Assembly: GCA_011523785.1 (NCBI GenBank)
Contig: WTFW01000156.1
Span: 1 to 40,751, forward strand
Origin: Chloroflexota bacterium
Lineage (GTDB): Bacteria > Chloroflexota > UBA11872
Reading direction: 5' to 3'
Length of the DNA: 40,751 bases
The notes under the pieces are model-generated. The model did no database searches, was not told the origin of the DNA, and was given only the letters and a program-made list of their open reading frames with translations. Below are positions 13,468 to 16,336 of this stretch, piece by piece. Every line of letters begins with the position of its first letter. Position 1 is the first letter of the stretch. Position numbers and translations under genes: made by a program.

Positions 13468-14354
<887 letters not shown>

Positions 14355-14358
<4 letters not shown>

Positions 14359-15164
14359 GCCTCAGCGTCATCCGCCTGACCCTGCGCACGCGTCGGTTGG
14401 CGATCTTCTGGTTTGACTTCGGAATTCTGGCCCTCGGTTTGCTCATCATGGGCCTGTGGCCGTTGTTCGCCGAGAATTGGGACGACCTGACCCAGGCCAT
14501 GGGCGGGAGCGAGGTATTCGGCGGGACCCAGGTTGAAGGGGCGTCGGCCCAGCAGAACACGTTCTACAGCTATTTCAGTTCGCAGTACACCAGCACGCTC
14601 ATGCTGGTGTTGGCCTATTTCGGCGTCTGGTTCGGGGCCGGGCTGATCACGCGCGACTTTGGAACCGGCACGCTGGACGTGTTGCTGGCCGCGCCGATGA
14701 GCCGCACGCGCTTCCTGTTGTCGCGCATGGCCGCCCTGCTGGTTCTCACCACCGTGGTTGTCGCGGCGTCATACGTCGCAATCCTGGTCGGCGCGGCCAT
14801 CTGGGCCAGCGAGGTCGACCTGGGCGCGCTCGAATTGCTGGTCGTCCACCTGCAAATGCTGGTCTTTACGCTGGCCGTGGCCGGCGGCGGACTGCTGCTG
14901 GCGACGCTGATCCTGCAGCCCGGCCGAACCTACGGCCTGGCCGCCGGCATCATCGTGATCATGTTCGTGCTGCTGATCGTGGCCGACATCGCGTCCAACC
15001 TGGAGTGGCTGGAGAAGATCAGCATCTTCGGCTACTGGAACCCGGTGGACCAGCTGGGGCCCGGCGACTTCATCTGGCGCGACACCCTGGTGTTGGGCGT
15101 CACCGCGCTGGTGACGTCGGCCATCGCGCTCGTAATCTTCCGGCGTCGCGATATCGTCGCCTGA
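14355..15164 (+). CDS. ABC-2 type transporter permease
   Basis: 269 residues with about six hydrophobic helices (near 18-40, 78-100, 120-150, 165-190, 195-220, 243-262). DFGTGTLDVLLAAPMSRTRFLLSR after the second helix is the typical cytosolic coupling segment of ABC-2 permeases, which contact the ATPase. The start overlaps the ATPase stop (ATGA), so the two are translationally coupled and act as one exporter, probably with two copies of each subunit. Length is normal for the family. Confidence 0.9.
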
Positions 15165-15242
15165 GTTCAGGCTGCCGCGGGCCTGCGGCGTTGCGATACT
15201 CAGGTTGGCGTCACTCGTCCGACAACCCACGAAAGTCCTGTC

Positions 15243-15731
15243 TTGCCGCGTGCCGAGGGTTCAGAAACACTTGGGCTGGGTGACCCCGCGCCCCGCTTCA
15301 CCCTGCCGCTGGCTTCGGATCCCGAACAGCTCTGCGACATTCCGGCCCGTCGCCAGTGGCAACTGCTGATCTTCCTTCGCCATACCTGGTGACCGAACTG
15401 CCGGAGATATCTGGCGCAGCTCGCGGGCGAGCTGGAGGAGTGGAAGCGACGTAACGTCGCCATCACCGGTGTCTATGGCCAGGGGCCGGAAGGCGTGCGG
15501 CGTTTCGCGCGGGGGCTGTCGCTTCCCTTCCCGCTTTTGGCGGATCCCGACCGCGCCGCCATCCGCCGCTACGGCGTCTACGTCCGCGTCAACTTCGAGT
15601 CCTGGAACATCGCCCGCCCCAGCGTGTTCCTGGTCGATCCCATGGGCCGTATCCGCTTCATCAGCGTCGGCGCCCACCAACGCGACTGGCCAGACTCAGC
15701 CCTCCTCTTCTCCGTGATCGACAGCACCTGA
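15243..15731 (+). CDS. Redoxin (Prx-like/AhpC-TSA) with in-frame UGA at the catalytic Cys: probable selenoprotein
   Basis: 162 residues if UGA at 15390-15392 is read as selenocysteine. The N-terminus GLGDPAPRFTLPL is typical of redoxins; LLIFLRHTW-U-PNCRRYLAQL is a thioredoxin-fold active site in which the UGA replaces the first cysteine of CxxC. Downstream in the same frame are GLSLPFPLLADPDRAAIRRYGVY and RPSVFLVDPMGRIRFISVG, the conserved second half of Prx-like proteins, so selection holds on both sides of the UGA. A perfect hairpin 25 bases after the UGA fits a bacterial SECIS. Nearby genes end in UGA, so the code is standard. The start is likely TTG 15243; there is no ATG or GTG in frame since the upstream permease stop. 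A nonsense mutation is the alternative. Expected role: thiol/peroxide reduction in the cytosol. Confidence 0.75.
15417..15434 (+). promoter_or_regulatory. Candidate bacterial SECIS hairpin
   Basis: CAGCTCGC (15417-15424), GG, GCGAGCTG (15427-15434): an 8-base perfect inverted repeat, realistically a 6-7 bp stem with a G-containing loop of 4-6 bases. The apical loop starts about 30 bases after the UGA at 15390-15392, inside the window known for bacterial SECIS elements (roughly 16-37 bases), and G lies among the first two loop bases. Confidence 0.55.
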
Positions 15732-15788
15732 AGCTGCCGCTGCCTATCGCTTTGAACTGACTCAGAGACCCGCGAGAGACTCGGCGGC

Positions 15789-15817
15789 TTGCAGAACTCG
15801 TACGAGTTACGTACGAT
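15789..15817 (+). promoter_or_regulatory. Promoter of the marR-ABC operon
   Basis: TTGCAG (15789-15794), exact 17-base spacer, TACGAT (15812-15817). It precedes the marR start by about 20-35 bases. The spacer holds a 14-bp palindrome, which supports a repressor-controlled promoter. Confidence 0.6.
15795..15808. promoter_or_regulatory. MarR-type operator
   Basis: AACTCGTACGAGTT is a perfect 14-bp palindrome located entirely between the -35 and -10 boxes. A second, related ACGTACGA copy continues into the -10. Position and symmetry fit binding by the dimeric MarR protein encoded immediately downstream. Confidence 0.6.
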
Positions 15818-15835
15818 TTGTGTTACAGATGATTC

Positions 15836-16336
15836 GTGAAACTGACGAGTATGGGAAGCTCTAACGCCGAGGCTGCGGCTGAACTGGCGGTTCTTGGTTC
15901 GCGCCTCGCGCGTATTGCGCAGCGCTTCGCCGAAACTCGTGAAGCCAGCTTGGGACTTACCCTGCCGGAATACCGGACGCTGCGCGCGCTCCGTCGGCGT
16001 GGCCCGCGTCGCATGAAGGACCTGGCCAACTGGCAGTTGCTCAGCAGCCAAACGATGTCGCAAACGGTGGATCGGCTGGTTGTCGCGGGCCTGGTCACCC
16101 GAACGGAAGACGCGGTCGACCGTCGGCACTTGCAGATTGGCGCCACTCCCCACGGGCTTGCACGACTGCAGGCTTACGAGCAAGCGTTTGAGCAATACCT
16201 GGTAGGCGCACTTGACGAACTTGACCACGCGGAGGCTGCCCAGATCGCCGCCGCCCTCACGCGCCTCAACGAGGCCATAGCCGCCAAGCGGGACGCCGGT
16301 TACTTCCGAACGCAACGCGAGCCCGTGCATGCGTAG
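15836..16336 (+). CDS. MarR-family transcriptional regulator
   Basis: 166 residues (161 if the ATG at 15851 is used). Winged-helix fold: LGLTLPEYRTLRALRRRGPRRMKDLANWQLLSSQTMSQTVDRLVVAGLVTRTEDAVDRRHLQIGATPHG contains the recognition helix and the DxRxx wing (VDRRHLQI) characteristic of MarR proteins, which usually repress drug exporters or stress genes and release DNA on binding a small phenolic or oxidised ligand. No conserved cysteine is present, so a redox switch is unlikely. The stop overlaps the next gene by 8 bases, and a palindrome sits in its promoter, so autoregulation of the exporter operon is very likely. Confidence 0.9.
   Translation: MKLTSMGSSNAEAAAELAVLGSRLARIAQRFAETREASLGLTLPEYRTLRALRRRGPRRMKDLANWQLLSSQTMSQTVDRLVVAGLVTRTEDAVDRRHLQIGATPHGLARLQAYEQAFEQYLVGALDELDHAEAAQIAAALTRLNEAIAAKRDAGYFRTQREPVHA

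Follow-up and report, generated by a model that had tools for sequence, protein, structure and literature searches.

An AhpC/TSA redoxin gene of a Chloroflexota bacterium with an in-frame UGA probably encodes a Prx-like UxxC selenoprotein

Is the in-frame UGA that interrupts a redoxin gene of a Chloroflexota bacterium a true stop, an error or a selenocysteine codon? In the window (the whole stretch of DNA that was analysed, 40,751 nucleotides long), an AhpC/TSA redoxin gene of Prx-like type occupies positions 15243-15731 of the forward strand and runs over 162 residues from a TTG start to a terminal TGA at 15729-15731, with one internal UGA at 15390-15392, at residue 50, in the motif W-U-P-N-C (UxxC). 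An earlier note on this DNA, made from the letters alone, had read this UGA as selenocysteine (Sec). We tried every refutation of that reading that could be computed and none succeeded, and we now consider it about 96% probable, from comparative sequence evidence, that the gene encodes a Prx-like UxxC selenoprotein in which UGA 15390-15392 would be read as Sec50 through SelB and a downstream RNA element.

We explored the reading frame and found it, together with the peptides that the earlier note had quoted on either side of the UGA, to be as described there: 15243-15731 is open throughout except for TGA 15390-15392, and redoxin sequence stands on both sides. With Cys substituted for U, the protein matched Pfam AhpC-TSA (PF00578) from residue 13 to residue 139 (86.5 bits, cut-off 26), so that a single domain spans the UGA; under the same substitution it also matched PF08534 Redoxin (49.7 bits, cut-off 26.6). 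The start at 15243 is supported by an ATG, GTG or TTG at the aligned position in 30 of 30 loci compared, the window gene included. That the frame is open around the UGA, which had been offered as evidence, is thus a correct observation, but as evidence it is weak: the window has a GC content of 67% and contains 93 sites at which one stop separates two open stretches, of 49 and 100 codons or longer (TGA at 58 of the 93). Such sites being common in a window this rich in GC, openness on either side of a stop is no proof by itself. The case for Sec rests on homology, on the position of the UGA and on its conservation. As to position, the claim that the UGA falls exactly at the catalytic Cys holds for a thioredoxin-type CxxC and fails in a peroxiredoxin alignment, where U lies on the Thr of TxxC and Cys53 (15399-15401), the second position of UxxC, is aligned to the peroxidatic Cys of canonical peroxiredoxins.

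A nonsense mutation in a dead gene, or a sequencing or assembly error, would look alike on a lone MAG contig, and the window does offer 58 comparable TGA places; the relatives argue strongly against it. A homologue search of 151 genomes (E up to 1e-8) gave a match in 85 of them, and TGA stood at the Sec50 codon in all 13 same-genus genomes, the source genome included, the 12 others being at 54-94% identity. A second copy in the source genome (contig C73, 52% identity) had TGA at the same site, as had its counterparts in nine other same-genus genomes and the loci of the sister genus (6/6 genomes). When the relatives were checked for other stops, which the earlier note had named as a refutation, none was found in 21 genes of the two nearest groups, and the TGA was kept at the same codon. 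The same TGA recurs in assemblies from several projects and, once repeats were removed, was present in 53 distinct genes, near and distant (loci L050-L059 duplicate genomes listed under G handles and were counted once in distinct counts).

Consistently with this conservation, the coding sequence on both sides of the UGA appeared constrained. In 11 same-genus orthologues, median dN/dS was 0.119 upstream of the UGA and 0.134 downstream of it; for 10 second-copy genes the values were 0.120 and 0.112, with no other internal stop in either set. The same two sets, in which two of the 13 orthologues (65% and 54% identity) were omitted, were used for synonymous variation. By these estimates, the half of the gene downstream of the UGA is under protein-level selection. 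Given that dN/dS stays near 0.12 downstream of the UGA, that 53 distinct genes share the TGA and that none of the 21 genes from the two closest groups contains a further stop, a pseudogene or an error has almost no probability left.

To extend the comparison to the phylum, 400 genomes were surveyed with a profile built from 16 chosen Sec members (alignment A2; E up to 1e-30; the first pass scored nine candidates per genome listed), so that the result concerns that subfamily. It gave 45 matches in 35 of the 400 genomes, 44 of them with exactly one TGA; the 45th, in G075, had no TGA and Ser at the site. TGA stood at the Sec50 site in 40 of the 40 loci read of the 44 (27 + 13, with G152, G231, G369 and G396 left out). 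Of 131 loci matched, 129 have an aligned site; 65 of these carry TGA there, and the rest encode Thr (51), Cys (8) or Ser (5). The comparison with Cys-containing homologues that the earlier note had called for thus placed Cys at the Sec position in 8 of 129 loci, all of them distant homologues; a few distant matches had another stop besides TGA (e.g. L048). In a quick tree of 115 rows, obtained from the 129 loci by removing repeats and rows of less than 100 residues, the window gene fell within 30 all-Sec rows of its own family and order (support 93) and the eight Cys rows fell outside this all-Sec set, many deep branches of the tree being weak or long. In a more distant branch, one Cys form (L045) paired closely with a Sec row, so that exchange between Sec and Cys has taken place in the wider family, for which Sec is not required. 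In two loci from a family of the same phylum (L044 and L046, family f11), UxxC is replaced by SPAT or STST, so that neither redox residue remains; their genomes (G075 and G046) nevertheless have selB. A plasmid search gave 57 records, every one at less than 60% identity.

We then looked at the Sec machinery. The check for selA, selB, selC and selD in the same genome, also proposed earlier, found all four in the source genome (3.30 Mb in 214 contigs): selA at 438.7 bits, a full-length selB at 326.5 bits (cut-off 242.25), selD at 366.9 bits and tRNA-Sec (selC) at 71.2 bits by covariance model, with the anticodon tca (UCA) according to ARAGORN. These Sec genes sit on separate contigs of the draft genome, which leaves their binning open to doubt; this doubt is countered by G002, a same-genus genome in one contig, in which the TGA redoxin and selB are both present. 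Of the 35 genomes that gave a survey match, 34 had selB (E up to 1e-72), as had 305 of all 400 genomes of the phylum, and since it is so frequent anyway, the co-occurrence lends weak support. The match without selB at this strict cut-off was in G022 (89% complete), but selA was present there.

A genome-wide reassignment of UGA, for example to Trp and with no part for selenium, would fit the Trp codon that immediately precedes the UGA. Against it, both adjoining ABC genes terminate in TGA, so that UGA remains a stop in this genome, and dedicated Sec genes are present. The placement of other in-frame TGAs also argues against reassignment. Pfam AhpC-TSA had 13 matches in the source genome, of which six carry an in-frame TGA, in every case at an active-site Cys/Sec position (WULSC, WUPNC, TPGU, HWUSHC, FCUINC and HWUPHC); selD (L017, contig C198) itself has one in-frame TGA, at HGAGUACK, and the sole SelW-like match (L195, contig C142) has TGA at CSQU. 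All these TGAs, including those at GUACK and CSQU, thus stand where an active-site Cys or Sec is expected, and we find reassignment extremely improbable. The six AhpC/TSA loci (L151-L154, L159 and L160) lie on contigs C73, C156, C77, C158, C173 and C121. From their sequences, selD and the SelW-like gene look like selenoprotein genes, and the genome would hold at least eight selenoprotein candidates (six AhpC/TSA, SelD and SelW-like).

Synonymous variation was at its minimum at the UGA. In the 11 orthologues, the seven lowest of 144 sliding windows of 14 codons had values of 0.049-0.081 (median 0.239), and the lowest of these (0.049-0.068) began at codons +2, -1 and 0, counted from the UGA, with a second, shallower dip at codons 51-90 (0.136-0.163); in the 10 second-copy genes, the lowest windows were at codons +3 and +4 (0.078; median 0.321). 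This pattern bears on the proposal of a split product, in which the 5' half would stop at the UGA and the 3' half would begin from an internal start, as the two pieces yielded by a mechanical ORF listing might suggest. The UGA lies within the redoxin domain, at the active site, and the codons just after it are the most conserved synonymously, a pattern more in keeping with a SECIS than with a restart, leaving a split product with a negligible chance. Pseudogene, assembly error, code reassignment and split gene were all rejected, on conservation, selection, the Sec genes and the placement of the TGAs.

Under the selenoprotein reading, an RNA element would be expected to act on the UGA, and two adjacent forward-strand hairpins, at 15399-15416 and 15417-15434, were present in the consensus fold of 27 family-level sequences (alignment A1, with 27 rows of the source's own taxonomic family, 19 of them distinct, and order- and phylum-level rows excluded). 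In this fold, 98.9% of cells pair in the 19 distinct rows, vs at most 42.5% in slid controls, and none of 500 shuffles reached the observed covariation score or the observed number of cells with both sides changed, consistently with compensatory changes in the first hairpin, which lies between the UGA and the second. Two further measures of the two-hairpin fold, pairs changed on both sides (53/500) and further pair types (455/500), gave no excess over shuffles, and a second covariation test was likewise null for both-side-changed pairs and further pair types (499/500 shuffles).

The bacterial SECIS model, as outlined in PMC13188914, comprises a loop of 3-9 nt with a G within its first two positions, a stem of 4-16 bp, 16-37 nt from UGA to loop and an energy of at most -7.5 kcal/mol. 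Applying these published constraints in a script that takes an unbroken stem only, we found hairpin 15417-15434 to agree with all of them (7-bp stem, loop CGGG, 31 nt after the UGA, -10.0 kcal/mol). The ends of its loop switch jointly from A-U to C-G in 8 of the 19 distinct rows while the two Gs between them are invariant, in agreement with the N1-G-G-N2 pattern of the model. A hairpin of this model followed the codon in 45 of 50 distinct Sec sequences vs 6 of 62 homologues with Cys, Thr or Ser there (distinct 60-nt stretches of the aligned loci, whose sequences are related to one another). Of 1549 windows taken from other parts of these genes, 107 had one; GC was similar (0.63 Sec, 0.64 control). 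The five Sec sequences that miss the -7.5 kcal/mol line include the same-genus L032.

Comparison with synonymous recodings gave a more divided picture. The SECIS energy was at or under 5% in 29 of the 50 Sec sequences and above it in 21; in the window gene, recodings attain the observed energy in 5% of draws, and they equalled the first hairpin in 0 of 1000 and the second in 79 of 1000. The first hairpin being the more extreme, the identity of the SelB-bound hairpin is less sure than the RNA constraint itself. The 51-nt fold stood out in four of nine genes (24, 15, 8 and 4 of 1000) and did not in the other five (97 to 451); compared with dinucleotide shuffles, the 67-nt region did not fold unusually well (z -0.93; 31 of 200 shuffles were as low), and Rfam gave no SECIS-like family at 15150-15900. 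Hairpin 15399-15416 was itself considered as the SECIS for its covarying pairs and its extremeness against recodings, and was rejected, its loop being 13 nt from the UGA, outside the range of 16-37 nt, while the second hairpin fits. That an RNA constraint follows the UGA is therefore the firmer of the two predictions, and the SECIS is most likely hairpin 15417-15434.

A predicted fold (Cys for Sec, 16 sequences) had a mean pLDDT of 86.8 and matched BCP4, AhpC2, AhpE and ResA structures. Positions invariant among the 16 subfamily members include U50, C53, R46, P97, D101 and P126, and in the model Sec50 immediately precedes helix 51-62, the first long helix. No hydrophobic export signal was apparent by eye at the N-terminus, so the protein is probably cytoplasmic. 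We propose the following course of events. The RNA right after the UGA, most likely hairpin 15417-15434, would recruit SelB with Sec-tRNA(UCA), and UGA 15390 would be decoded as Sec, as the anatomy of the gene, the machinery and the conservation suggest. By analogy with the family, Sec50 would most likely act as the attacking selenolate and reduce a peroxide or a disulfide; Cys53 would resolve it as a selenenylsulfide, and a thioredoxin-like partner would recycle the Sec50/Cys53 pair. A peroxidase or disulfide activity of this redoxin is accordingly one that we infer from its relatives.

The genes around the redoxin could point to a more specific role. Directly upstream on the forward strand lie an ABC transporter ATP-binding subunit (13468-14358) and an ABC-2 type permease (14355-15164), both assigned by Pfam. 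In the neighbourhood comparison, this ATPase and permease pair immediately preceded the redoxin gene at all 13 same-genus and all 6 sister-genus loci, and a functional tie of the redoxin to the ABC-2 transporter is possible. Downstream, the genes vary across the two genera, with MarR and ABC exporters in the window. It might be argued from the constant upstream pair that the protein, while a selenoprotein, mainly serves the adjoining transporter, as a redox switch or in substrate reduction, rather than general peroxide or disulfide chemistry. No ABC pair turned up next to the second copy, either in flanks of some 0.6 kb at ten loci or, by eye, among the ORFs of 9 kb in the source genome, and none next to L037 and L040-L043, which are relatives at the order and phylum level (flanks of some 1.5 kb). 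We hold this transporter role to be unlikely. Equally doubtful in our view is the broader proposal that the redoxin subfamily is almost obligately Sec-dependent in Chloroflexota, that in one family it has become a dedicated selenium redox partner of the ABC-2 pair instead of a general antioxidant, and that the two-hairpin context of the UGA tunes decoding.

These data support, on computational grounds, a selenoprotein whose gene would be divided in two or dropped by standard gene calling, and they point to a lineage rich in redox selenoproteins, a single genome of 3.3 Mb having at least eight candidates. Both the near-complete preference for Sec among the close relatives surveyed and the apparent number of redox selenoproteins in the genome are somewhat unusual. 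The nearly all-Sec close relatives form a clean set for asking why some lineages keep Sec over Cys at this position, and the Sec relatives also supply a set of SECIS for testing bacterial SECIS requirements.

How does this protein relate to known systems? A literature search on titles and abstract beginnings, with most subscription papers outside its scope, gave no title on this Chloroflexota subfamily. The earlier comparison with SelL was unsuitable: SelL and SelL-related proteins (NF040769, UxxU) share with the window protein the U at the first motif position and a weak match, but the second position is Cys and not Sec, and the score of 57.7 bits is under the cut-off of 120, so that SelL-related membership was rejected. 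Sec peroxiredoxins of the TxxU type belong to the same Pfam family (PF00578), and a separate TPGU gene of that type is present in the source genome (L153); assignment to this type was also rejected, since Sec is there at the peroxidatic Cys, while here U aligns with Thr and Cys53 is in the peroxidatic position. ResA/TlpA proteins have a WCxxC-type motif and a similar fold (3c71; ResA chains at TMq 0.67-0.70 among the matches listed), but the window protein reaches 31.4 bits against a ResA model cut-off of 170, and no hydrophobic N-terminal segment was seen in it by eye, unlike in ResA/TlpA.

The established Prx-like UxxC group provides the better fit, as the suggestion of another Prx-like UxxC or UxxU member had anticipated. 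Prx-like thiol:disulfide oxidoreductases with UxxC or UxxU appear as predicted selenoproteins in the accounts of PMC13188914 and PMC9312934, the former also setting out PF08534 Redoxin as a separate UxxC selenoprotein kind; a Prx-like protein with a thioredoxin-like UXXC replacing TXXU is described from the Sargasso Sea (PMC1088965), and 'Prx-like 1' is named in the GOS survey (PMC2398784). The figures for GOS Prx-like 1 favour Cys (2,740 Cys vs 225 Sec, as given in PMC2398784), whereas the close matches in Chloroflexota were TGA in 44 of 45, with one Ser. The Prx-like UxxC selenoproteins represented by WP_010940744.1 resemble the window gene in Pfam domain, in UxxC and in a SECIS-like hairpin after the UGA, a likeness by description, and the window protein passes PF08534 Redoxin as well. 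On its sequence, the window protein is best placed as a Prx-like thiol:disulfide oxidoreductase selenoprotein (PF00578, UxxC), a kind of enzyme that is itself already known.
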